A stretch of DNA of 64,000 bases from Haloplanus sp. HW8-1 (lineage in GTDB: Archaea; Halobacteriota; Halobacteria; Halobacteriales; Haloferacaceae). The number at the start of each line of letters is the position of its first letter. Within the stretch, counting starts at the first letter, position 1. Shown piece after piece: positions 3,588 through 61,702 of the stretch. The notes under the pieces are model-generated. The model saw only the letters and a list, made by a program, of their open reading frames with translations, was not told where the DNA came from and ran no database searches. The stretch is from assembly GCF_023703795.1 (NCBI RefSeq), contig NZ_CP098518.1, forward strand, positions 1,116,001 through 1,180,000, in the 5' to 3' direction. The position numbers and the translations under genes are program-made.

Positions 3588-6500
3588 TTACTCGGGACGG
3601 TTCTCGATTATTACGATGGTATCTTCGTCGAGGGAGTCCAACCGTTGGTTCACTGTGCGGACACGGTCAAGCAAGTCGTTCGCTTCCCGTAGCAGTTCTT
3701 CCGCTCGCTCTTCACCCGGCCGGTCGTCAGCGTCGACACGCCCCGTCACTGTGTGTGTGAGGTCGGCGTTCGGGAGTTCTTCCCGCAGTTCATCCGCCGT
3801 GTGCTCGAGGCGCTCCCACGTGTCTTCACCGGAAATCGGGTCTTTGGCCTCCTCGATCAGGTCTTCGACGCGAGTCGGCTTCGGTGGCGTCGACGACGTC
3901 AACGCCGCGTCGACGGACTCCCGTGTCAGGGTTTCCGGATGCTCAGAGCGGAGTTCTCCGGCGGCGTCCTCGAGCTGTGACCAGAGACTCTCGCCGTCCG
4001 ACTCGTCGAACAGTTCACGAACGGTCGCATAGGTCTCGGCTTGCTGGACAACTACGGTATCGACGACAGTACGCTCCGATAGTGGTTCGCCGTTCCACGC
4101 GGTCTCGAGTAGTGTTGTGAGGTCATCGAGGTCAACGTCGTGAAATTCGCCCGTGGCCGAATCGATAATACGACTGACGTCGTCCTCGTTCGACTGAATC
4201 CAGCGACCAAGGTCTTCACAGATTGCTTCGGAGTTGGATTCAGTGGTGGTGTCTCCCGTAATCCGCCGATACTGCGCCGACGTTTCGTCGACGCGGTGAT
4301 CCACTGCGTCCCGAAGCCGTGACTCGACCGTCGCGACACTGGGGACAGTATTGCTCTCCGCTGTCTCCCGCATACCGGAGGTCACCGACGCATTCGGATA
4401 GAGCGACGTCATCGTGTCCAGCTCGTCGCTGAACCGTTCCCAGAGCGTCGTCCCGTCCTCCTCGACGCCGAAGAGCTCACGAGCCTCCGCGAAAGTCTTC
4501 GCCTCCTCGAGTACCGTGTCGACGTCACTTCCCAAGTCGGACGTGGACAGTTCGTCACCACTGAGGGCTGGCTCGATCGTCGCCTCGAACGTATCGAGCG
4601 TTACGTCGAACTCTCTATTCGCTCCCTTCAGCGTGCGTTTGACGGTCGCACTGTTCTCGTCGACCCACTGGCCGAGTTCGGTCAGCCATTCGTCGATACC
4701 GTCGCCAGTTGGTTCGCCCTCAAGAACGGTGTCAACGAGCGTCCGTACTTTTCTCGGATCGATTATCTTCTCGAAGCGAACCGTCAGCGACGTAAGTCCG
4801 CCTTTCGTCCGAACCTGTCTACCAACCGACGTTGGGTCATTTAGATACTCAGTATTTTGTTTGAGCACGACATCCTCGTTGGAGGTCGCGAGCGTGACGA
4901 GAAGCGCTGCGATCGACTCCTGTGGCGTCCCGCGGTAGTCACCGTTCGCCGTCCGGGTCTGCTGGAGGAGCGTCTCGACGTCGACCGACTTCTGTGACTC
5001 GTACGTGTCGATGAACTCCCGACACCAGCCGGTGACTCCGATCTCGGCGCTGGTGGTATCGACGCCAAGCATCGCGGCGTCCGCGCCCGAGAGCGGCCAT
5101 TCTCCGCTGCCGCGGAAGAACTTCGCCATCGCCTTCGCGTCGTCGACTTCGACGAGCGGCCGTGAGAGCGTCTTCCGAGACGATCCGAACACGGCGTCGA
5201 CCTGATCCTGGACGACATCGTCGAGCACGCTGGAGCGTGCGCCGCGACGTTCGTGGACCGTGTACACCGATGCGTCCTCGAGGATTTCGGTAACCGAGGT
5301 TTCGAGACGGCGCTTGTCAGTCCGGTGTTCGCGCTCGAGTTCCTCGTGGGACTCGGTCTCCTCGTCTAACACCTGTCCCATCCCGATGACGTTGCGAATC
5401 CGCTCGAGCATCGTCTCGGGCACGTCGATGGTGATCAGAACGTGTTCGCCACCATCCGGGCCGTCATTTACATCCTGCCACGTCTCGACCTGCTCGGAGA
5501 TGGTATCGTGTTCGTCTGCCAGCACGCGAACGCGAAGCGCATCGTACTCCGGGGACGGCGCTCGGTCGACCGGTTCGAGGATCGAGTAGTCGTACCGCAG
5601 TGGGACGAGGCGCTCGTCGCCGACGTCGGCCTCGTGACGGCTCCCGTCGCTGCGGAAGAAGTCGTCGCTCTCGCGCAGTCGCGTCTCCAACCACGCCGAC
5701 AGCTGGTGCGGGGAAATCTTCGCGGCCTTGTCCTGCGCCCGGCTGAGGATACTTTCCTGATCCTCGGAGACGAGCGTGTACACTTCGTCGCCTTGGTCGT
5801 TCGTTTCCGTGAGGGCCTTCTGCTTGTCGACGAGCCTTTCCAGCCCCGACCCGGTTCGCTCGACGACGTCGTCGACGGACGCGGTGACGTCGTCGACCAT
5901 CAACCGTCCGAGGTTCCCCGGCGTCGAGGGGACAGCAGGCGTCTGGTTCAGGAGGTAGAGCCCCTTCGCGAGGCGCACTTCCCAGGCGTCTCCGTCACCG
6001 TCGAACGTTGGCACGAGCGTGTTGTCGATCATCTCCTGAACCCACAGCGGGAGGTACGTCGTCTCCTCGACCAGCAGGTCGAACAGGACGTCCCACGTGA
6101 CGAGCGACCCTTCCTCCTCCGACGCCCACCCGAACTTGGTGAACAGCGACCTGACCAGAACGAGCAGTGCCCGCCCCTGGATGTAATCTCGGTCCGTTGA
6201 CCGTCCCTGTGTAATGAGTTCCTGCATCACCGTTCGCAGGAGCGACAGGTCGTACTCGCGGAACGGATAGGACTCGATCGGATCCGGGTCCGCACTCGTC
6301 ACCGAGGAGTACGTATGAAGTGAGAGGTCGGGCATCGACGCCACCATCGACGCGACACGCTCTCTGCCCTCGGGATCGGATTTTTGGAGCCAGCGTTTTC
6401 GGACGATGATCTCCGTGTCCGCTCCTTCGAGTGGGACCTGTTGGTGTGTCCAGTGGTCTTCGGGCGGCTCGCCGATGAGACTCTCCCGTGTATCCGGGAG

Positions 6501-7412
6501 GGAGTACTGTCCGGTGGTGACCACGACCGGGTTGGGCCCACGCTGCAGTGCCTCCATTGTGTCCTCGAACTCACGATAGCGATGGCGACTGTCGCCGACG
6601 AAGAGCGCCACCTCGTCTAACCCGAGCAGCAATTCGGTCCGTTTGCTGCCGTCGTTGAGAGCCTCCGTTGCAGTCTCGACTCGTGAGACGAGGTCCTCGG
6701 GATCGAATTCTTCTGGATCGACATCCGCTTCTGCGGTCTCGATGGAGGCTTTCACGCCCGAACGACTGTCGAGTTCCGTACCAGACGTCTCTTCCATCGC
6801 CGGCAACGCCTCGTAGAGCCAGCTGCGGAGGGACGCCCGTTCTGCGAGCACGTCGTCGAATGTCTTCCCGTCATGCTCGAACGTTCGGAGGGCTTCCCAG
6901 ACCCCATCGTACTCCATGTCCAGTGTCCAAGCCCACTCGAGCAGCCAGTTCGGATCGGTCGGATACCCGAGTTCACGGCCGATCGCCTCGAAGATGAGGA
7001 ACGGCAGCGGGGGCTCTTTCGACGCGTCGCGGTCGAGCAGGTTGAGGAAGACCGGCTTGAGGCGGTCGAGGTGCGAGTCGGTGATAGACCGCTGAAGTTC
7101 GTCGAACCCGGGCCACTGCTCGGCCAGCCTGTCACCCAGGTAGGCGAATTCCGACTCGTCGTCGGCGAGGAGGCCGACTAGCTTCAGGAGGTGAGTCTTC
7201 CCGGAGCCGAACGTCGCGTGGATGTAGAGAAACCGTGCAGCCTCACCGGGATGTGTCTTGATCGTCTCGCCGAGTTCCGTGAGAACCCGCTCGGCACTAT
7301 CCGTTTCGTAGAACTCTCGGACGTCGGTTTCGGCCCGTTCCCGGGCGTTGACTTTCTGTACTTCTTCGAGTTGTCGAGTCGGATCGCTGTGGAAGAGGTC
7401 GTCGATAGTCAT
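3588..7412 (-). CDS. brxC: BREX P-loop ATPase BrxC, second copy
   Basis: Large AAA+-type ATPase of the BREX complex, 1,274 residues, cytoplasmic, required with PglX and PglZ for phage exclusion. Walker A is ATFGSGKTH at about residues 66-74 and Walker B LLLGLDEVALF near 263-273. The rest is acidic and helical, as usual for BrxC/PglY. Its ATG overlaps the end of brxB by 4 bp, so translation is probably coupled. It clearly differs from the other BrxC-type protein at 8026-11772 and is not a recent duplicate. A duplicated brxC is the hallmark described for the haloarchaeal BREX type (type 5). Whether the two form a hetero-oligomer is an inference. Confidence 0.9.
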   Translation of the reverse strand: MTIDDLFHSDPTRQLEEVQKVNARERAETDVREFYETDSAERVLTELGETIKTHPGEAARFLYIHATFGSGKTHLLKLVGLLADDESEFAYLGDRLAEQWPGFDELQRSITDSHLDRLKPVFLNLLDRDASKEPPLPFLIFEAIGRELGYPTDPNWLLEWAWTLDMEYDGVWEALRTFEHDGKTFDDVLAERASLRSWLYEALPAMEETSGTELDSRSGVKASIETAEADVDPEEFDPEDLVSRVETATEALNDGSKRTELLLGLDEVALFVGDSRHRYREFEDTMEALQRGPNPVVVTTGQYSLPDTRESLIGEPPEDHWTHQQVPLEGADTEIIVRKRWLQKSDPEGRERVASMVASMPDLSLHTYSSVTSADPDPIESYPFREYDLSLLRTVMQELITQGRSTDRDYIQGRALLVLVRSLFTKFGWASEEEGSLVTWDVLFDLLVEETTYLPLWVQEMIDNTLVPTFDGDGDAWEVRLAKGLYLLNQTPAVPSTPGNLGRLMVDDVTASVDDVVERTGSGLERLVDKQKALTETNDQGDEVYTLVSEDQESILSRAQDKAAKISPHQLSAWLETRLRESDDFFRSDGSRHEADVGDERLVPLRYDYSILEPVDRAPSPEYDALRVRVLADEHDTISEQVETWQDVNDGPDGGEHVLITIDVPETMLERIRNVIGMGQVLDEETESHEELEREHRTDKRRLETSVTEILEDASVYTVHERRGARSSVLDDVVQDQVDAVFGSSRKTLSRPLVEVDDAKAMAKFFRGSGEWPLSGADAAMLGVDTTSAEIGVTGWCREFIDTYESQKSVDVETLLQQTRTANGDYRGTPQESIAALLVTLATSNEDVVLKQNTEYLNDPTSVGRQVRTKGGLTSLTVRFEKIIDPRKVRTLVDTVLEGEPTGDGIDEWLTELGQWVDENSATVKRTLKGANREFDVTLDTFEATIEPALSGDELSTSDLGSDVDTVLEEAKTFAEARELFGVEEDGTTLWERFSDELDTMTSLYPNASVTSGMRETAESNTVPSVATVESRLRDAVDHRVDETSAQYRRITGDTTTESNSEAICEDLGRWIQSNEDDVSRIIDSATGEFHDVDLDDLTTLLETAWNGEPLSERTVVDTVVVQQAETYATVRELFDESDGESLWSQLEDAAGELRSEHPETLTRESVDAALTSSTPPKPTRVEDLIEEAKDPISGEDTWERLEHTADELREELPNADLTHTVTGRVDADDRPGEERAEELLREANDLLDRVRTVNQRLDSLDEDTIVIIENRPE

Positions 7413-8029
7413 TGGAGATGCACCCCCTGGATCTGGCCGTCGATCTGGTGGGCCGGGTAGTAGTGCCGCGATTCGCCACCGAAGAAACTCAATTTCCCAC
7501 CGACGACGTCTCCAGGGAACGGGATGCCGACCGTGGACTTGACGTTCCGCCGGTCGAGTTCGTCGAGCAGTTCTGACGCGCGCGTGAATGGATACAGACT
7601 GCCGAGGTTGAGCAGGAGCACCACGTGGCTCTGGGTCTCCAGTTGTTCTTCGCTGAGCGCGTGCTCGATCATCTGTTGAACGAGTTCCTCGGCGAGTTGA
7701 TCTTGCATTGTCCCCTCGATACGCTCGCCTGGCGACGTGTCGTCGTCGAGGTCGGCTAGTGAATCGCCCAGGTCGACGAGGAGTTTGTACACGTCGGTCT
7801 GGGGAAGGAGTTCGTCGAGTCGGATCGGCTGAACAGTAACAATGTCCGGAATCTCCGGTGATTCCATTCGACCAGCCGACCAGGTTTCCAGACGGTCTGC
7901 TACCCGGTGTTCGACCGCTGGCTCGACGGCAGCGATAACGAACGGATTACGAATACCGTACTGCCCCTGCGCGAACGTACTCAGTTTCTCCTTGAATTCG
8001 CGGTACGGCGACGAACTGCCGTGGCTCAT
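7409..8029 (-). CDS. brxB: BREX protein BrxB (DUF1788 family)
   Basis: A 206-residue protein of the BrxB family, a small core component of BREX whose biochemical role is not settled. The family signature LLLNLGSLYPFTRASELLDEL followed by a short strand and a P-G-D loop (GIPFPGDVVGG) is seen at about residues 136-178. It sits between the two brxC genes and overlaps each by 4 bp (8026-8029 and 7409-7412), so the three are translated as one unit. No membrane segment or catalytic motif is visible. Assignment rests on that motif, length and context. Confidence 0.85.
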   Translation of the reverse strand: MSHGSSSPYREFKEKLSTFAQGQYGIRNPFVIAAVEPAVEHRVADRLETWSAGRMESPEIPDIVTVQPIRLDELLPQTDVYKLLVDLGDSLADLDDDTSPGERIEGTMQDQLAEELVQQMIEHALSEEQLETQSHVVLLLNLGSLYPFTRASELLDELDRRNVKSTVGIPFPGDVVGGKLSFFGGESRHYYPAHQIDGQIQGVHLQ

Positions 8030-11000
8030 CGAATAATCACCCCTTCGTCCGTCTCCTCGATCTCGAGGGCTTGCTGTTCAACAAGACGCTCCAGACGACG
8101 ATTCAGTTTCTGCCGATCGTCCGGTACGATTCCGATCTGGTCGATGCCGTCGGGCGTCCGAGTGCCAACGATCGACGATAGCTCGTCGAGTCGGGACCTC
8201 ACCTCGGTCGGAGTATATTCGACCGAATCGCCGAGGGGTTCTAACTGCGCTATGTCGTCCGTTACTTCGACGACCTCGTCTGAATCTGCATCACTCGACA
8301 GCATCGTGATGGCGTTCTCGATCGTTTCGTACCACTGCTGGAGACGGCGCATCGGCGTGATGTATTCGCCCTCGAAGGCGATGTGGACGCCTGCTGGGAG
8401 ATCGGTAGCCTGGAGCACCCAGTGATGCTCTTCGATACGGTTGACCAGTTCACCCAAGCCACGTTCGTCAACGAACGCGTTCCACGACCGGTCAAACTCG
8501 GGAGCAAGGTCAGGAACTAACGCTCCGGACAGCGTACTCCACCCGTCGGTCGTCCACCACTCACCGTCGAACGACGATACCGCGGTCGAGCGAGAGACGA
8601 TGGTAGATCGAGCGTCCTCGTCAACCCAGTCGAACTGACGGTTCCCGATCGTTAGTACCGCGTCAATCCGTTGTAGCGTCGAAAGACGCCGGTTCCAGAC
8701 GTCGATTACCTCTTCGACCCACTCCTGTGTCTCGTTCGTCCGGTCGATAACGCCCTCGATACCGTCGTCCTGTGATTTGACCGTTGAGATGCGGTCATCG
8801 GCCGCCTCGATTCGCTCGGTCAGCTCGTCAGCAAACGTCTCGAGTAATTCGGCGACTTCGTCAGTTCGAACGTCCGTGTCGACGACAAGAGTGACGTCTT
8901 CACGAAGTCCGGTAAGCTTCGAGCGAATCTGCTGGTTGGCTTCCTGGAGGTGGATGAGACCATCCGCAACCGTTTCGGTCGTTCCCTTGAAACCGCCCTC
9001 TTCCAGAACATCTGCGGGCGACTTCCATTTGAGTAATGTAAGCCTCGTCGTCGAGAGGCTGTCGAGGTCGAGGACAGCCTCGTCTTCCAGCGTGCTTCCG
9101 TCTTCGTCGATAGGTAGCAGTCGTCCTTTTCGACAGAATCCCCAGATGATCGCACAGAGTGCGGGCCGTGCCTCGTCGTAGAACGGCTTCCGGTCGACGA
9201 TACCGTCGAGGACGGTATTCATATTGAGCCCCTCGTCGCGGCCTTTTAGCTGTCGACCGGTGAGAGACATGACGTTTCGCTGGATCGTCTGTTTACCTTG
9301 GCTCCCATTCTGGTTCGAGGGAACCTGAATCGTTTGCGCCCACGTGGGCAGTGGTGAATCGCCGTCGAGTTCGCGTAGCTCGCGCAGTCGACTCTCGTCG
9401 ACTTGGAGCATCATTGGGTGGAAGTCGTCGGGGAAGGCGACGTCGACCGTGGCCCGAACTGCTTTCGAAAGACCGCGGATGTCCGTCCGATCTTTGACGG
9501 TGTACGAGCCGCTCATCATCGCGCTGGTCAACTTACTGCGGACTGCATCTGCACGCTGTTCGAGGTCACGCTCAACCGCCGGTGGTGGGTCACGTGTCGC
9601 AATCGCGTCGCGAAGCGACCACCACTCGACCAGTCGTTTTCGTAGGTCTTGGAGACCATCAGTGTCTATCTCCCAGTACAGCGTGTCCTCGTCGGTTTGT
9701 CCGGAATCCGTGTCAGGCCGAACGCCCTGAATAGCGATGTCGATATCTAGTCCCCTCTCAGACAACTCACTCGTCTCGAACGTCGTTCCGTCGAGTTCGA
9801 AATGATACGAAACCGGGTACTCGTCGCCGGACTCCCCGTACGGAACTGACTCGGGAAGAGACAGGTCTTGGGTAATCCGTTCCCAGAGATGGTCGTCTAG
9901 CGTTGCGACGACGTCGTCCCAGTCCGGGTCCGCTTCGTTCTCCTCGGTATCGTCGTAGATGAGCCGCTCTTCCTGTGTTGTGAACCGATAGCGTGGTCCA
10001 CTCTCGTCTTGAGCCGGTCGGATAAACTTCCGAAGCCGATCTAGTGATTCCTCGACGCGATTGGTCGTACTGATCCAGGATTGGCCATTCAGGTCATCCA
10101 TGACGGCCACCGCGATGTTCCCCTCGTTCAGTGGGACGATTTCGTGAACGTGCTGGAGCAGGAGTACCGCCTTCGCGACGGCGAGGTCGAACTCCCGGAG
10201 CTCGCTCTGTTCGTCGTCTACCTCGTCCGCGATACCGGTCGTCTCGTCGGGCCCCTCGACGACCCGCATATCCTGTGGGAGGATTTCGCGCAACTCAGGC
10301 TCGATCAACTCGAAAAAGTCGACCAAGGAGACGATCCGGTCTTCCTCGCCATCGTCGACCCAGTCTTTCAGTAGCCCGTGCATGAGCGCAAGGATGGCCC
10401 GTGCTGTTCCCGAAAAGATGGACTTTGCCGGATCGTTCGCCTCCCGACGAAGATTGAACAGAATTTCGAGGAATAATGGCGCGTGATACGGGAGGAACGG
10501 ATAGCATTCGACGAGTTCTTCATCGTCGATCGCGTCGAGCGGCGGCTTCGTGTTCTGCTTGATCTCGTTGTAAACGAGCGACTCAGGCGGTTTCACACCG
10601 GCATCGTCGAGGATTCGGCGAACTGCGTCTTCGCCTGTTTTTGACTTTTGGAAAAGCCGTCGTTTAGCTATGTCACCGACGTGCTTACTCGGTAGCTGAT
10701 ACCGGTGTGGGAACCGGTCTTTGACGATACTGAAATCAGCGCCGTGCGCCGCGAATTTCGGCTGAACGTCTTCGATTCTCGCCTGTGCGGTTGCGACGAG
10801 CTGAATGTCACCATTCCCGATGTCGTCGACGTTCTCTGCAAGCGTCTGAAGCTCGGTGAGACGCTCGAAATCGGTCCCGATGAAGAGGCTCACTTCGTCG
10901 AGCAAAAGAAGGAGCTTGACCGGTTCGCCGAGCTCCTCTTCACGGTCTCGCCGGAGGGATTCGAGGCGGCCAACGACCTCCTCGGGGTCAATATCCGAGG

Positions 11001-11772
11001 GCTGGAGGTCAGTGTAGCCGTCCCGCGTGCCCGTTACGTCCTCGAACAGCCCCGGGAGCACTACGTCGGAGAGCGCGCTGTACTGTTGGATGTCGGTCCA
11101 GAGGTCTGCTTCCTCCCATTCGTACTGCGGCGATCTCGGGGGCACTCCCTCGACGACTGATGCCGCTTTGTCTTGCCGCTCAGACCACGCTTCGGTCGTT
11201 TGGTACCAGTCTTCGAAGTACGCGACGTCGAGTTGGGAGGACAGCCCGGTGGAGATTCCATCATCGACACCCGTGAGGATCGGGTTCCGGTGGGCATGCC
11301 GAAGAACGATCTCACTGAAACTTCGTTGCTTCTGTCCCTGGTATTTCAGCAGGTTCACCGAGACGGGAATGACGTGGTATTCGGAATGAACGCGTTCCCA
11401 ACGGCCGCGCAATTCGTTCAGGTTGCTCTCGGTCGACGTATCCGGAACGAGAGAGGTCCAGACATCGTCGTAGCAACTCCGGAGCCACTGGGTATCCATC
11501 AGGCCGTCAAGGACTGTCAGCAGATGACTCTTTCCGCTGCCGTAGTAGCCGTAGAGCCAGTAGTTCGACCCCGTGCGCATGTCCTCTGCCTCGCCGAGCA
11601 GGCGATTGACGAAGTCTTCAAAGAAGTGTTGGGAATCCTCCGTGACGTGGTAGGACCCTATAGCTTGTCGCCTGTGCCGGTTTCCCTCCGCCGACTGCTC
11701 CTCGCGGTCGATGCGTACCGATTCTTCGAAATCTTCAGACAGGTCATCGAACCAAGTTGGACCAACCATCAT
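8026..11772 (-). CDS. brxC: BREX P-loop ATPase BrxC, first copy
   Basis: A 1,248-residue ATPase of the BREX system. Walker A is GYYGSGKSH at about residues 75-83 and Walker B KLLLLLDEVSLF near 290. The N-terminal segment before the P-loop and the long acidic C-terminal half match the BrxC/PglY architecture. Its start overlaps the brxA stop by 4 bp and its stop overlaps brxB by 4 bp. The nearest in-frame start gives MMVGPTWFDDL; the second Met is equally possible. It shares little sequence with the other BrxC (3588-7412) outside the ATPase motifs, which implies an old duplication and probably distinct roles. Confidence 0.9.
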   Translation of the reverse strand: MMVGPTWFDDLSEDFEESVRIDREEQSAEGNRHRRQAIGSYHVTEDSQHFFEDFVNRLLGEAEDMRTGSNYWLYGYYGSGKSHLLTVLDGLMDTQWLRSCYDDVWTSLVPDTSTESNLNELRGRWERVHSEYHVIPVSVNLLKYQGQKQRSFSEIVLRHAHRNPILTGVDDGISTGLSSQLDVAYFEDWYQTTEAWSERQDKAASVVEGVPPRSPQYEWEEADLWTDIQQYSALSDVVLPGLFEDVTGTRDGYTDLQPSDIDPEEVVGRLESLRRDREEELGEPVKLLLLLDEVSLFIGTDFERLTELQTLAENVDDIGNGDIQLVATAQARIEDVQPKFAAHGADFSIVKDRFPHRYQLPSKHVGDIAKRRLFQKSKTGEDAVRRILDDAGVKPPESLVYNEIKQNTKPPLDAIDDEELVECYPFLPYHAPLFLEILFNLRREANDPAKSIFSGTARAILALMHGLLKDWVDDGEEDRIVSLVDFFELIEPELREILPQDMRVVEGPDETTGIADEVDDEQSELREFDLAVAKAVLLLQHVHEIVPLNEGNIAVAVMDDLNGQSWISTTNRVEESLDRLRKFIRPAQDESGPRYRFTTQEERLIYDDTEENEADPDWDDVVATLDDHLWERITQDLSLPESVPYGESGDEYPVSYHFELDGTTFETSELSERGLDIDIAIQGVRPDTDSGQTDEDTLYWEIDTDGLQDLRKRLVEWWSLRDAIATRDPPPAVERDLEQRADAVRSKLTSAMMSGSYTVKDRTDIRGLSKAVRATVDVAFPDDFHPMMLQVDESRLRELRELDGDSPLPTWAQTIQVPSNQNGSQGKQTIQRNVMSLTGRQLKGRDEGLNMNTVLDGIVDRKPFYDEARPALCAIIWGFCRKGRLLPIDEDGSTLEDEAVLDLDSLSTTRLTLLKWKSPADVLEEGGFKGTTETVADGLIHLQEANQQIRSKLTGLREDVTLVVDTDVRTDEVAELLETFADELTERIEAADDRISTVKSQDDGIEGVIDRTNETQEWVEEVIDVWNRRLSTLQRIDAVLTIGNRQFDWVDEDARSTIVSRSTAVSSFDGEWWTTDGWSTLSGALVPDLAPEFDRSWNAFVDERGLGELVNRIEEHHWVLQATDLPAGVHIAFEGEYITPMRRLQQWYETIENAITMLSSDADSDEVVEVTDDIAQLEPLGDSVEYTPTEVRSRLDELSSIVGTRTPDGIDQIGIVPDDRQKLNRRLERLVEQQALEIEETDEGVIIR

Positions 11773-12608
11773 TCAGCACCCTCTTGAGAGAGCCATGCGT
11801 ACGGTTCGTCAGTAGGTCGCAGTTGGAGGCGGCCGTGGAGTTCGACAAACTCCCAGGCGTCCGTTTTAGCCACTCTATCGCAGTGCTCTTCCCACCGATC
11901 GCTCGGCTGAAGCAGGTACTGGAGGCCGACCGGCGACTCTAGCCACTCGTCACCACCCTCCGCATACGAGTAATCCATCGCAACGAGGAGTGGTATATCT
12001 CCGAGTGATGGTGGATCACCGACGACAGTTTGCTGATCTTCGAGGACGCCGATCTCACGCATGACCGATCGGAAGCCTTCACACCAACGTTCCGTGGTGG
12101 AGTCAGCGTAGTCGAAAGCGGATCCATCGGAGTATTCAAACTGGTCAAGGACAGCAGTGAGTGCCTCGTTCGAGAAGTCAAGTGCGTCTGGAGCGTTTAC
12201 AGAAAGTCGCTGTACGTACTCGTGGACGACATAGCGGACGAGCACGTCGTCCGCGACGAGATACGGGTAGAGAACTTGTGCTTTGTCCTGCGGCGTTGAG
12301 CAGGTATCCAATACCGTAGGTAGGGCACGCGGGTTGGGAAGGCTGGCAGGAGCGTTTTTGAATCGTGATGCGAGAACACGGTAGATCTTCTGTGAACTTC
12401 CTCGTGTGCTGCGGTTAGCACGGCGTTCATCGAACCAGATCTCCTTGACCAGGTTCCAATTCCCGTGTTCGTTGTATATTTGAACGATCTCCTCGGCTCG
12501 CTCAACGAGAAGACCACACATGGTCAAGTCCATGTTTACCTCGTCCTGTGAGAATCGGTGAGAGAGCGACGGCGGTTGCGTCCCCCCGCCGTCAGGGATA
12601 GTATTCAT
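11769..12608 (-). CDS. brxA: BREX protein BrxA (DUF1819 family)
   Basis: A 279-residue protein at the head of the BREX operon. BrxA proteins are small, helical, NusB-like DNA-binding factors. The N-terminal half shows the family pattern: CGLLVERAEEIVQIY, then a W-x2-V-K-E-I-W segment, then an R-x-S-S-Q-K-I-Y-R-V-L-A-S-R helix. The start at ATG 12608 leaves a short, poorly conserved N-terminus; MDLTMCGLL at residue 26 is an alternative. It overlaps brxC-1 by 4 bp. Being first in the operon, its upstream region should carry the BREX promoter. Confidence 0.82.
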   Translation of the reverse strand: MNTIPDGGGTQPPSLSHRFSQDEVNMDLTMCGLLVERAEEIVQIYNEHGNWNLVKEIWFDERRANRSTRGSSQKIYRVLASRFKNAPASLPNPRALPTVLDTCSTPQDKAQVLYPYLVADDVLVRYVVHEYVQRLSVNAPDALDFSNEALTAVLDQFEYSDGSAFDYADSTTERWCEGFRSVMREIGVLEDQQTVVGDPPSLGDIPLLVAMDYSYAEGGDEWLESPVGLQYLLQPSDRWEEHCDRVAKTDAWEFVELHGRLQLRPTDEPYAWLSQEGAE

Positions 12609-12967: not shown

Positions 12968-15157
12968 TCACCGTGATAGTTCTATTTTGACAACGTTGCC
13001 GGCTGGCGAATTCTCCTCGACTGTGATGGTACCGCCCGACCTGGCGGTGATCAATTTCACGAGCCACAACCCGAGACCGCTCCCGTGGTACAGCGGTGTT
13101 TGCTCCGCTTCGTCTACCAATAAATCTCGGTCCATCTCGGGGATGCGCGGCCCACTGTCGGCTATTTCGATACGAACCGTCTCGTCAGTCTGAGTAACGG
13201 TAACGGTGACTTCAGGCGACGGCGAATCGTTGTGGATGATCGCGTTCGTAACGAGTTCTTTGATCGCCTGTCCAAACTGTGGCATCGCCTCAACGGTTAC
13301 GTCGTCAGGGCAATCAACAGCAATTGTCGCGTCCGAGTACTCCGAACCAACACGCGAAACGACGTCCTGGAGGCGATCGCGTACCTCGATTCGGTCCTGT
13401 GTCGGGTCCTCCCGAAGCAATTCCGTTATCTGGCGTTCTTTGTCTGCCAGTCGGATCAGTCGGTCGCTCGTGTCCACGATCTCCTCGGCAGAGGCTGCAA
13501 CCTCCCCCGACGTCTCGGCGTTGATCGTCTCGGCTCGTCCTCGAACCATGTTCATATCGTTGCGGAGGTTGTGTCGTAACACCCGATCAAGAACTTCTAA
13601 CTGTCGTTGGCGCTCCTTGCGCCCTGTGACATCCTGTTGGAATCCGATGTAGTTGACGACGGTACCGGCATCGTCTCGTACGGGCGCGACTTTGAGGTGG
13701 TTCCAGAACTCCGTGCCGTCCTTGCGATAATTTTTGATCTCGATCGATATAGGTTCCTCCGAATCGATCGCCTCCCGAATTTTCGCAATCCGGTCCGGGT
13801 CGGTGTTCTCGCCCTGAAGGAATCGACAGTTCTTCCCGACTGCCTCCTCACGTGGGTAGCCCGTCAAATCTACGAACGCCTCGTTGACGTAGATCATCGG
13901 GTTGTCCTCCCGGTCCGGATCAGTGATGGTGATGCCAACGGGGGCTTCGTCAATCGCCTGCGTCCGTCGCTGTAGCGTCTCCTCTCGCTCTTTGCGTTCC
14001 GTAATGTCCTTCTGGACTGCAACGAACGAGTGAATCTCGTCACCGTCGGTGACGGGGGCGACCGTCTGCATCGCCACGTACATTTCGCCGTTCTTCCGAC
14101 GGTTGATGATCTCCTCTGCCCACACCTCCCCAGAGAGGATCGTGTTCCAGAAGTCCTCGAAATACCCATCCGGCATTGCCCCGGAGTTCAACACGTGCGG
14201 TGTCTTGCCGACGACTTCTGCCTGAGTGAATCCAGTTGTCTCCTCGAAGCCCGCGTTGACGTACTCGATTTTCCCGTCGGGATCGGTGATAAAGATCGCG
14301 TGGCCAGCGGATTCGACCGCCTGCTTGATGCGTTGAAGATCGCGTTCGCGCTCCTTGCGCTCGGTGATGTCCTGCATCGTCCCCCGAACGCGGGCCAGTT
14401 CCCCGTCTTGGTACTGGGGTTCGCCCCTCGTTCGCACCCATCGCTGGTTGCCCTCCGCATCGGTGAGTCGGACTTCGACATCGTACGGCTCATCCTCCTC
14501 GATAGCCGTCTCGAACGCATCTTCGACGATCGGTCGATCCTCGGGGTGGTAATATTGGAGGCTCAGTTCCGGAGACGGCGTCGTGTCGTCTGGGAGCGCG
14601 TGAATGCGGGACACCTCGTCGGTCCACCATCCCTCTTCGGCATCGATATCGTACTCCCAGGCGCCGACGTTCGCAATATCTTGGGCTTTCTCGAAGAGAT
14701 CGACCTGGCGTTCGAGCTCGCGCTCTCGTTCTCGCAAGGTGAGCGACTGATTCCGCAGTCGGAGCAACGCTTCGAGTCGCCAGTTGAGTTCGGTCTGCTG
14801 GATCGGCAGCGAGACGATCTCGTCGATCGTTTCCGTGACCACGTTGTCGGCGAGCTGACCGGCATCTGACTCGATGATATCCGCCCCTGACTCCGGAAGC
14901 AAGAGGAGATACGGAAGCAAAACGGGGGCCGCCGCCGCCTTCTTCTCACGGAGCGCATCGAGGTGTTCCTGGAACGCTCCTTTGTCGATGATACAGACAT
15001 CGAAGTCAGCGTCCTCGATGTCGCCCGAGAAGTCCACGGATTCGTAGGAAGGGTGATCGTCGATCCATTTTTCGAGCACCTGTCGATTGCCCGAATCCGC
15101 AATGAGGGGGAGGATCCGGTTCCGGGATCCGCGCACCGCTTTGGGAGTCATCGTCAT
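12968..15157 (-). CDS. Sensor histidine kinase with three PAS domains, the third LOV-type
   Basis: A soluble 729-residue sensor kinase with no membrane segments. After an N-terminal region of about 150 residues (receiver-like start, then a coiled coil) come PAS domains at about 155-270, 278-395 and 403-515. The third carries the LOV signature GKNCRFLQG at 441-449 with the adduct-forming Cys at 444, followed by NYRKDGTEFWNHL and YIGFQQDV, the blue-light flavin-binding pattern. The dimerisation/phosphoacceptor segment is VLRHNLRND (His about 529), and HATPase motifs ELVTNAIIHND and HGSGLGLWLV follow. Its ATG overlaps the stop of the broken kinase upstream (ATGA), placing it last in a KaiC-led operon. 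No response regulator lies alongside. Confidence 0.93.
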   Translation of the reverse strand: MTMTPKAVRGSRNRILPLIADSGNRQVLEKWIDDHPSYESVDFSGDIEDADFDVCIIDKGAFQEHLDALREKKAAAAPVLLPYLLLLPESGADIIESDAGQLADNVVTETIDEIVSLPIQQTELNWRLEALLRLRNQSLTLRERERELERQVDLFEKAQDIANVGAWEYDIDAEEGWWTDEVSRIHALPDDTTPSPELSLQYYHPEDRPIVEDAFETAIEEDEPYDVEVRLTDAEGNQRWVRTRGEPQYQDGELARVRGTMQDITERKERERDLQRIKQAVESAGHAIFITDPDGKIEYVNAGFEETTGFTQAEVVGKTPHVLNSGAMPDGYFEDFWNTILSGEVWAEEIINRRKNGEMYVAMQTVAPVTDGDEIHSFVAVQKDITERKEREETLQRRTQAIDEAPVGITITDPDREDNPMIYVNEAFVDLTGYPREEAVGKNCRFLQGENTDPDRIAKIREAIDSEEPISIEIKNYRKDGTEFWNHLKVAPVRDDAGTVVNYIGFQQDVTGRKERQRQLEVLDRVLRHNLRNDMNMVRGRAETINAETSGEVAASAEEIVDTSDRLIRLADKERQITELLREDPTQDRIEVRDRLQDVVSRVGSEYSDATIAVDCPDDVTVEAMPQFGQAIKELVTNAIIHNDSPSPEVTVTVTQTDETVRIEIADSGPRIPEMDRDLLVDEAEQTPLYHGSGLGLWLVKLITARSGGTITVEENSPAGNVVKIELSR

Positions 15158-15811
15158 CGGTATTCACCCCAGTCGGCGACTCTTTCGGGTAGTTCGACCT
15201 CGGTACTGACCCCGCCCGAGTCGCCGTCGCTGATTTGTAGTGTGCCGCCGTACTCCGCGACTGGTGTATCGACGAGAGAGACCGAGTCCCGCTACAGGAT
15301 GATCGAGTCCTTGGTCGGTTCGGTCAAGCACTGCGTTCCGCTGGTCGGATGGGGTCCCCGAGTCGTCGTGGGGCATCGTGATCCTGATCCGCCCGAGCGT
15401 ATCAAGTCGCTCCCGTAACTCTACGGTGCCGAGCGGTGTCGTCAGATCTTCATCGACAAACTGTGACACCGCCGGCTCTGTCTCAGTCCCTTCCCGACGA
15501 TCGAGTGTCTCAACACCGGTGTCGGACCCATCGGGCAACACCGGGAGCATATCGTCTGCCTTCCGCTCTCGGATCTCGGTGTCGTACTCACGGAGCGAAT
15601 GTTCCTCGAAAACACCGACATCCAGGTCGGCCTCCGAGAGAGCAACGACGGCGTCCGAGACGGTCTCGTACTTGTCTGGTCGTTGGAGTCGAATGACGTG
15701 TCCTCGTGGCTGGCCCACATGCGACGGTACCGGTACGACCCGGGCGGGTGATGTCACTGTCCCAGGCCGGCCAGCGGTTCCAAGCACCGGTGACTCAGTC
15801 TCCATCGTCAT
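15154..15811 (-). pseudogene. Broken histidine-kinase-like gene between kaiC-like and LOV kinase
   Basis: The 5' part (from 15811) reads as normal acidic haloarchaeal protein up to about residue 145, then turns into arginine-rich nonsense and stops at 15164. In another frame, 15154-15290 encodes a C-terminal tail typical of a kinase ATPase domain (VAEYGGTLQISDGDSGGVS, ending VADWGEYR) whose TGA overlaps the ATG of the LOV kinase. So the gene has lost its middle and shifted frame. The start overlaps the upstream KaiC-like gene by 17 bp, showing that it was once a coupled operon member. The original was probably a KaiC-linked sensor kinase. Overlap at both ends argues for local decay, not insertion. 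Confidence 0.75.
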
Positions 15812-17261
15812 TCCAAGTCGGTGTGCCGGTGAGAATCCCTCGGAGTTCGGGCAGCGAGTCCCCGACCTGCAGACCGTGTTCGGTGATCTCCAGTTCCCGG
15901 AGCTGGTTTTCGTACTGGCTGGTGCGCATCTTGAGGACGCCGATCACCTTCCGGAGTGAGCCCTTGTATTCGACATGGCGCAGGACGACGATGCTGTCAG
16001 CAAGATAGCTCATGCCTTGGTCGGTCGCGCGGAACTCACCGGTGATGTTGTGGACTTCGTTCGTCACTAGTCCGGTCACGCCCATGTTGCGGAGGTAGCG
16101 ACCGATCTTGACGAGGTCCCGCATCGGGTCTTCGTCGACGCCGCGTAGCGACTGCTCGAACCCGCTGGTCCCGTCGATCATCACGATTTCGGCGTCGTTG
16201 TCTTCGACTTCCGATCGGATGCGGTGGGTGAACTCGTCGATCGTGAGTTCTTCAGGGCCGATCACCTCCACGTTGAGCGTCCCCCGGTCGATCATTTCGG
16301 TCACGGGGATGTTGACGGCCTCCGCGCGCTCGAAGAGGGTGTTGTGGTCCTCTTCGAAGCTATACAGGACCGAGCGCCGGCCTCGGCCTGCGGCCTCTTT
16401 CATGAACTGGAGACCGGTCGTTGTCTTGCCGACCCCTGTCGGCCCGCTCAGAAACGTGATCGTTCCAGTGGTGAGCCCCCCCGACAACAGTGAGTCCAGT
16501 GCCGGAACACCCGAGGAGAGTTTGCTCGAAGTGTGCTCGCGCTCGTGACGGTTGGGATCGAGTCGTGGCCACACTTGCATACCATCGTCGGCTATCTGGA
16601 GCGTGTGGTGTCCGGATCGAACAGAGGAGCCACGGAACTTCGAGACGTGGATCGTTCGGCGATCCGGCCCCGCCTTGACGTTTATCACGGCATCGACGAG
16701 AAACTGCAGGTCGTCGTCGGGCATCGACGTGGCAGCCTGCGAAGTGAGCAGGACCGTCGCGCCCTCGCTTTTGAGGAAGTTGATCAGGCCGAGAATCTGC
16801 GACCGGAACTGGTGTTCGTCGGGAGCGAGATACCGGAACTCGGTGACTGGATCCACCACGACTCGATCCGGGTTGATCTCTTGGACCTCCGCGCGAATGC
16901 TCTCAACGAGCGAGGGCGTTTCCACTTCACCGGACTCAAACAGGGTGTACGTCTCCTCGCCCTGAAACTGGTCGCCAGAGGCAGAGAGGTTGAGGAACTC
17001 GATCGCATCAATAGCGAAACCGAAGTGCTGGGCAGTATCCCGAATGTAGTCCTCCGGTTCGCCAAGGTTGATGTACAGCCCGGTCTCGTCCGCATCCAGA
17101 CCAGCAGCGAGAAAGTGTAAGGAGAAAATCGACTTGCCAGAGCCGGGTTCGCCTCGCACGAGCGTTGCAGACTCGGGGAGATAGCCGCCGCCGAGGATAT
17201 CGTTCACGCCCGGAATGCCGGTCACGAGTCGCTCTCGGTCCGTATTATTCGTTTTGCTCAT
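15795..17261 (-). CDS. KaiC-like double-domain RecA/RAD55 ATPase
   Basis: About 488 residues with two RecA-type KaiC domains. The first P-loop GEPGSGKS is at about 37-44 with INLGEPE after it; the second P-loop GPTGVGKTT is near 273-281 with LYSFEEDHNTLF following, which fits the paired acidic residues of KaiC. The start at ATG 17261 (MSKTNNTDRERL) was preferred over one 39 bp upstream because the added residues are atypical. Archaeal KaiC homologues are signalling ATPases, not proven clocks; there is no KaiA or KaiB here. The gene leads an operon with two histidine-kinase genes, one broken and one LOV-bearing, suggesting that it relays or gates their signal. Confidence 0.9.
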   Translation of the reverse strand: MSKTNNTDRERLVTGIPGVNDILGGGYLPESATLVRGEPGSGKSIFSLHFLAAGLDADETGLYINLGEPEDYIRDTAQHFGFAIDAIEFLNLSASGDQFQGEETYTLFESGEVETPSLVESIRAEVQEINPDRVVVDPVTEFRYLAPDEHQFRSQILGLINFLKSEGATVLLTSQAATSMPDDDLQFLVDAVINVKAGPDRRTIHVSKFRGSSVRSGHHTLQIADDGMQVWPRLDPNRHEREHTSSKLSSGVPALDSLLSGGLTTGTITFLSGPTGVGKTTTGLQFMKEAAGRGRRSVLYSFEEDHNTLFERAEAVNIPVTEMIDRGTLNVEVIGPEELTIDEFTHRIRSEVEDNDAEIVMIDGTSGFEQSLRGVDEDPMRDLVKIGRYLRNMGVTGLVTNEVHNITGEFRATDQGMSYLADSIVVLRHVEYKGSLRKVIGVLKMRTSQYENQLRELEITEHGLQVGDSLPELRGILTGTPTWNDDGD

Positions 17262-17341
17262 GTATACCCTGGCTTTCTGGCACCATATGTCTCTTCGCAC
17301 TTGGTTCCAAGCCGTGATAGCTATGGCACATTATTTTTGTC

Positions 17342-61340: not shown

Positions 61341-61702
61341 ATCTCGGCACAGAACCGAGACAGGAGTTGATCGAGAACGCCATCAGCCACAACGACGATC
61401 CGTCGTCGACGCTACGAATCGAGGTGGCGTCCGGAGCCGACCGACACGAGATTTGATTTCACGACGACTGCGACGGCATCCCGGACTACGAGTGGGCGGT
61501 CGTCACGGGCGAACGGGAGATCACACAACTCACCCACGGCAGCGGCCTCGGTCTCTGGTTCGTGCGCTGTGTAACCGATTCCGACGGGGGAGCGGTACGG
61601 CGGAGATGGAGCGAGGACGGCGGAACGACGGTTCGTCTTCGTCTCCGGCCGACCACCTCCGCCTCGGAGCGGATCGCTCCCCACGACGTACCGGAAGAGT
61701 GA
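61341..61702 (+). pseudogene. Histidine-kinase ATPase-domain relic
   Basis: A C-terminal kinase fragment with an N-box QELIENAISHNDDPSSTLRI and a G-box THGSGLGLWFVRCVTDSDGG, ending RIAPHDVPEE. An in-frame TGA after ADRHEI (about 61455) breaks the segment between, and the dimerisation and sensory parts are absent. It directly precedes the HalX response regulator on the same strand, so it may be the remnant of that regulator's cognate kinase, or a separate relic. Confidence 0.75.

Follow-up and report, generated by a model that had tools for sequence, protein, structure and literature searches.

A kaiC gene beside a histidine kinase of its own has been on record since 2011, when the KaiC-specific histidine kinase family "Nt_HK" was described from Ramlibacter tataouinensis (Rta_04330/Rta_04340) and cotranscription was shown (PMC3164672). 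Here we compare with this and other described systems a locus on the chromosome of the haloarchaeon Haloplanus sp. HW8-1 (genome G000), lying in a stretch of 64,000 nucleotides (contig C1:1116001-1180000; the window), in which a two-domain KaiC-family ATPase is accompanied by a histidine kinase that carries a light-oxygen-voltage (LOV) domain and an N-terminal pseudo-receiver domain (pREC). The model best supported by our observations is a pair of KaiC and pREC-kinase with a swappable sensor slot that has repeatedly been taken by LOV. An initial annotation of the locus had presented it as a new signalling arrangement, which is right only in part: kaiC beside a dedicated histidine kinase was already known, whereas a LOV sensor in that slot appears to be new, no description of a LOV kinase paired with KaiC having been found in the open literature (most subscription papers lay outside the search).

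In Nt_HK, as here, kaiC is followed by its specific histidine kinase, kaiB is absent, the phosphosite pair is of the SY type, and the kinase begins with a receiver-like domain that was proposed to be the KaiC-interaction module (PMC3164672). The window locus fits this family by its gene order, its receiver-like N-terminal domain and its lack of kaiB, a likeness drawn from layout. From its locus tag we take rrnAC0131 to be a haloarchaeal KaiC. It was placed only in a mixed group, however, the family being described for bacteria, and the described pair has no LOV domain or other photoreceptor (PMC3164672). In Haloferax volcanii cirC adjoins fixL, so that here too a two-domain KaiC of a haloarchaeon neighbours a PAS histidine kinase, and cir expression is light-dependent (PMC3941300), but no LOV domain was reported and the loci of our survey that we assign as Haloferax-like are of the form pREC-PAS-histidine kinase without LOV. 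The kaiC-kaiB-PAS/histidine kinase operons of Rhodopseudomonas and Rhodobacter likewise tie KaiC to a PAS histidine kinase; unlike the window locus they include kaiB, and the passage describing them mentions no LOV domain (PMC4794148). LOV histidine kinases themselves (YtvA-like LOV, Brucella LOV-HK and the archaeal LOVs of Lake Diamante) share with the window kinase the Cys motif and the flavin residues, and haloarchaeal architectures of REC, PAS, LOV and histidine kinase domains are known from Lake Diamante in a paper that does not mention KaiC (PMC12202551).

In the cyanobacterial KaiABC clock the histidine kinases SasA and CikA read or reset KaiC. KaiA and CikA contain pseudo-receivers, whose targets are KaiC or KaiB (PMC12632262); no photoreceptor is known for clock input in Synechococcus (PMC5520375). 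By contrast no KaiB or KaiB-like domain was found here, PF07689 giving no match in the genome at E 0.001 in a search whose control was positive in S. elongatus, and a KaiABC clock was rejected on this ground. SasA was also rejected, as the N-terminal domain of the window kinase models as a receiver fold and not as the KaiB-like thioredoxin fold. CikA is a GAF-histidine kinase with a C-terminal pseudo-receiver, a layout not shared by the window kinase, whose pseudo-receiver is N-terminal and whose sensors are PAS and LOV domains.

Pairing of KaiC with pREC kinases in haloarchaea

In haloarchaeal genomes we surveyed the neighbourhoods of 102 genes for two-domain KaiC, together with 29 usable loci of named organisms. 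A pREC gene adjoins 100 of the 102 haloarchaeal loci and a pREC-histidine kinase 90 of them, and the two-protein unit is kept in nearly all haloarchaea with two-domain KaiC. Presence and absence go together as well: with thresholds of E 1e-60 for KaiC and E 1e-8 for pREC, 75 of 116 genomes hold both and 36 neither, one having KaiC alone and four pREC alone (Fisher p 2.5e-24, with no correction for kinship, so that the p-values overstate the association because such counts ignore shared ancestry). This weakness does not extend to the differing layouts or to the decay of both partners together. Furthermore, in eight congeneric genomes every pREC copy (22/22) sits at a KaiC gene or a KaiC remnant.

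At 37 of the 102 loci the adjacent kinase carries the LOV Cys. The LOV codon pattern occurs at 187 sites in the 116 genomes, about 1.6 per genome, against 9 for the reversed control, and 27 LOV sites lie beside KaiC where about 0.08 would be expected under random gene order (about 3,400 genes per genome), by which chance adjacency was rejected. The LOV kinases come as pREC-LOV-HK (HK, histidine kinase) divergent from kaiC (18 loci), pREC-PAS-LOV-PAS-HK (8), pREC-PAS-PAS-LOV-HK (3 plus the window), pREC-LOV-PAS(1-4)-HK and others, and ordinary PAS domains fill the same sensor slot at other KaiC loci. Two more pairs occur in the window genome: an intact one on contig C3, where KaiC overlaps its pREC-PAS-LOV-PAS-HK kinase (GRNCRFLQ), and one on contig C1 with the motif GRNCRMLQ. 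The C3 kinase and KaiC matches are doubled with equal scores at an offset of 97,452 bp within the 200,002-bp contig (36221-39870 and 133673-137322; L010/L011), possibly a circular plasmid of ~97 kb that was assembled twice. Both genes of the window pair are under purifying selection, with ratios of nonsynonymous to synonymous substitution (dN/dS) of 0.14-0.21 for the kinase and 0.10-0.16 for KaiC, far below 1, and selection on the LOV domain equals that on the remainder of the kinase. The link between LOV kinase and KaiC proposed in the initial annotation does exist, recurs and is maintained by purifying selection, and a functional pairing of KaiC with the pREC-kinase is very likely; the direction given to it, light into KaiC, gained no evidence.

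The shared part of these kinases is pREC, which has no Pfam match in the window kinase. Its AlphaFold2 model (22 sequences) is a receiver fold, with receivers of response regulators and CpaE-type proteins as the best Foldseek matches, and is degenerate, having neither the active-site Lys nor the usual acidic pair. The Lys before the invariant Pro is absent from all rows of alignment A2 except the doubtful L095, which resembles an ordinary response regulator and is to be ignored there. Because these residues are missing, pREC is a pseudo-receiver by the published definition, a receiver fold without at least one of five active-site residues, and the authors of that definition knew of no published functional study of archaeal pseudo-receivers (PMC12632262). 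Over 84 pairs, KaiC distances correlate more closely with those of pREC (r 0.80) than with those of the kinase core in the same protein (0.57; bootstrap interval for the difference 0.17-0.30), and the partial correlations are 0.68 for pREC and 0.08 for the kinase core. This pREC-specific co-divergence, a correlation and not a contact, singles out pREC as the KaiC-linked part of the kinase and leaves the sensors exchangeable. In tracking KaiC in both presence and divergence, pREC stands out as a candidate for the domain that contacts KaiC.

On the KaiC tree the LOV-linked genes fall into five groups and imply 9 changes (supported branches require 8), each of which may be a gain or a loss of LOV. 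For the LOV tree the number is 8 (7-9 across bootstrap trees, never just one), and a single origin of the KaiC-linked LOV domains is not rejected (approximately unbiased test, p 0.14). From these trees repeated acquisition of LOV by KaiC-paired kinases appears likely. The recurrence of the pairing across haloarchaea suggests that light is one of several interchangeable signals feeding the KaiC module. As a separate observation, KaiCs about 42-51% identical to that of the window occur in cyanobacteria (L089, L093, L094, L096) and in other bacteria (L091, L097, L099 and L106); these KaiCs have a pREC gene, often pREC-HK, nearby and stand apart from the textbook Kai genes. Gene exchange between those bacteria and haloarchaea is possible.

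Genes of the window locus

The features of the locus are collected in the table below.

Table. Features of the KaiC-LOV kinase locus, in positions of the window
Feature	Position	Strand	Basis
KaiC-family ATPase of two domains, 488 aa, M start at 17261 (GTG at 17300 upstream also possible)	15795..17261	-	Pfam, KaiC structures, alignment
CI-like domain, residues 14-233, Walker A GEPGSGKS	16563..17222	-	Pfam, alignments
CII-like domain, residues 246-482, Walker A GPTGVGKT	15816..16526	-	alignments
Decayed pREC-histidine kinase gene (remnant)	15158..15811	-	tblastn with intact relatives G003, G055, G061; weak pREC match
LOV histidine kinase, 729 aa, pREC-PAS-PAS-LOV-HisKA-like-HATPase	12968..15157	-	open reading frame, Pfam, PDB matches
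pREC, N-terminal pseudo-receiver	14750..15121	-	structure model (pLDDT 89.6), receiver fold
PAS domain 1, residues 151-268, PAS_3 type	14354..14707	-	Pfam
PAS domain 2, residues 269-392, without LOV cysteine (GKTPHVLNS)	13982..14353	-	Pfam, motif check
LOV domain, residues 399-515	13613..13963	-	Pfam, PDB matches, flavin residues
Codon of C444, predicted flavin-adduct cysteine, within GKNCRFLQG	13826..13828	-	
Kinase core, residues 516-729	12971..13612	-	HATPase_c 1.1e-17, motif positions

The LOV signature that had been noticed in the last gene was found as described: GKNCRFLQG with the photoactive Cys at residue 444 stands in the third PAS-type domain of the 729-aa open reading frame, and NYRKDGTEFWNHL and GFQQDV are present together with NYRKDG and FWN. 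All eight flavin-pocket residues that were checked (N443, C444, R445, Q448, R461, N476, N486 and Q507) are in place, so that the domain has both the adduct-Cys motif GXNCRFLQ and the flavin-contact residues of LOV, and nearly all of the best 60 PDB matches listed are photoreceptors of the LOV type or fusions with LOV, YtvA-FixL (4gcz, 3e-41) being first. The concern raised at the outset, that the Cys motif might be common in non-light-sensing PAS domains, proved unfounded, as there is no such Cys in the second PAS domain of this kinase and genomes carry few copies of the motif. The LOV domain is probably a working blue-light sensor and, judged by these residues, belongs to the photo-competent majority of its class. 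Across the 43 KaiC-linked LOV domains with Cys, N476, Q507, R445 and Q448 never vary. The kinase core has the H-box RHNLRND with H529 and, in its HATPase domain, the N-box NAIIHN, the G1 box DSGPRI, in which Arg replaces the second Gly, and the G2 box GSGLGLW, and thus the set of motifs of a histidine kinase.

The KaiC homologue is double-domain as had been claimed, aligning with KaiC end to end and carrying a Walker A motif in each half. It matches Pfam KaiC at 4.4e-75 over two stretches, PDB 8zn5 at 1.3e-59 and S. elongatus KaiC (1u9i) at 1.7e-54. Aligned with 12 haloarchaeal homologues (13 sequences), it retains the CII catalytic pair E303 E304. The S. elongatus phosphosites S431/T432 correspond to S418/Y419, of which S418 is invariant and Tyr419 nearly invariant across the 13 KaiCs, and the KaiABC-type Ser/Thr pair is absent. 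A haloarchaeal two-domain KaiC on a Halorussus pelagicus plasmid (L242) is annotated gvpD, probably a mislabel.

Contrary to the initial annotation, kaiC and the LOV kinase are not directly coupled in translation, since 637 bp separate the kaiC stop (15795) from the kinase ATG (15157). This gap is filled by a decayed pREC-histidine kinase gene, so that any coupling in the window would pass through a broken gene. The middle open reading frame has no match in a Pfam search; compared with a relative of ~427 aa, the remnant has lost about residues 190-345 (~156 codons, including the H-box region) and then carries frameshifts. The kaiC stop overlaps the ATG of the remnant (15811), and one remnant frame stops 6 bp before the kinase ATG. 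In G003, G055 and G061 the intermediate gene is open (406-429 aa), in the close relative G006 it is absent and kaiC directly overlaps the LOV kinase, and in Halorussus pelagicus the three-gene set is intact with an 11-bp overlap at each junction. Elsewhere pREC-kinases stand beside KaiC fragments (L084 at G000 C1:2566156-2568224, L209, L210 and L211), the pair decaying repeatedly, beginning with KaiC; L084 also has a damaged LOV-class motif (GRNWGFLQG).

Blue light, flavin redox and the direction of signalling

We favour, with some reserve, a model in which the KaiC ATPase and its dedicated soluble histidine kinase would form a signalling unit that combines the state of KaiC with blue light. 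In this model pREC would dock on, or be controlled by, KaiC, blue light would drive formation of a flavin-C444 adduct, and the adduct would alter autophosphorylation at H529. Blue light and the state of KaiC (its nucleotide or its phosphorylation) would thereby converge on the kinase, followed by phosphoryl transfer to an unlinked regulator. By analogy to SasA and CikA the kinase is tentatively taken to read KaiC rather than to feed it.

Several observations weigh against this model. Roughly half of the KaiC-linked modules have no LOV-class domain at all, no cognate response regulator is linked to the KaiC/kinase locus, and in CI of the window KaiC the first catalytic Glu has become Gly in its lineage (NLGEP), the second, E68, being retained. 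Furthermore, four flavin residues are kept in 53 KaiC-linked LOV-class domains, and 10 of these have lost the Cys (7 to Pro and one each to Ala, His and Phe), and in the intact set of Halorussus pelagicus it is Ser; light adduct formation is for these reasons not essential to the module. Photoadduct chemistry may be less general than the flavin pocket, and the LOV-class domain could then be a flavin sensor of redox or oxygen, with light secondary, the module reporting energy or redox state to or from KaiC. Seven KaiC-linked kinases with a LOV-class pocket and Pro for Cys, the scattered Ala, His, Phe, Leu and Ser substitutions, and the ordinary PAS domains that serve the same slot elsewhere speak for such a sensor, but 43 of the 53 domains keep the Cys, as do the LOV kinases of the close relatives G003, G006, G055 and G076, and we regard this explanation as unlikely. 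The kinases with Pro for Cys and the flavin residues kept (L067, L068, L070, L179, L181, L182 and L184) are natural candidates for flavin sensors without a photoadduct.

Light could instead be an input to KaiC, the LOV kinase or pREC altering KaiC ATPase or autophosphorylation and light setting a KaiC timer. The action of the cyanobacterial KaiA and CikA pseudo-receivers on KaiC or KaiB (PMC12632262), the invariance of S418 in the 13 aligned KaiCs and the light-dependent expression of the H. volcanii cir genes (PMC3941300) are all consistent with such an input, yet the genome has no KaiB match, KaiA is described as confined to cyanobacteria (PMC5520375), the T432 equivalent is Tyr, the CI Glu is partly lost, and nothing in the sequence fixes the direction. 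We hold this arrangement to be doubtful, though somewhat less so than the redox sensor. A KaiC timer actually set by light seems quite improbable, and equally slim are the chances of a KaiB-less KaiC timer or state switch, with the photoreceptor as input or output kinase, that would have been assembled several times independently. If true, KaiC would be connected directly to a photoreceptor, for which the Synechococcus clock has no known counterpart, and this would bear on a possible role of KaiC in timing or day-night signalling in archaea. Finally, the adjacency might be inherited gene order alone, with KaiC and kinase not cooperating: most loci share ancestry, which makes the counts non-independent, and the KaiC clade with divergent kinases is a single lineage. 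That layouts with an overlapping downstream kinase and with a divergent one both occur, and that presence and absence, decay at several loci and the pREC-specific divergence are all joint, argue against it and make it the least probable of the explanations considered. For the favoured unit of KaiC and LOV kinase, the defined gene pair and the natural variants that lack just the light-reactive Cys make a link between light and KaiC testable with two proteins.

Other features of the window

Directly downstream of the LOV kinase lie BREX-type defence genes (3588-12608, minus strand). With strong PADLOC matches throughout, they encode BrxA, BrxB and a pair of dissimilar BrxC/PglY proteins of 1274 and 1248 aa. 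At 61358-61645 on the plus strand a histidine-kinase ATPase stretch contains an in-frame TGA and is likely a broken kinase gene.

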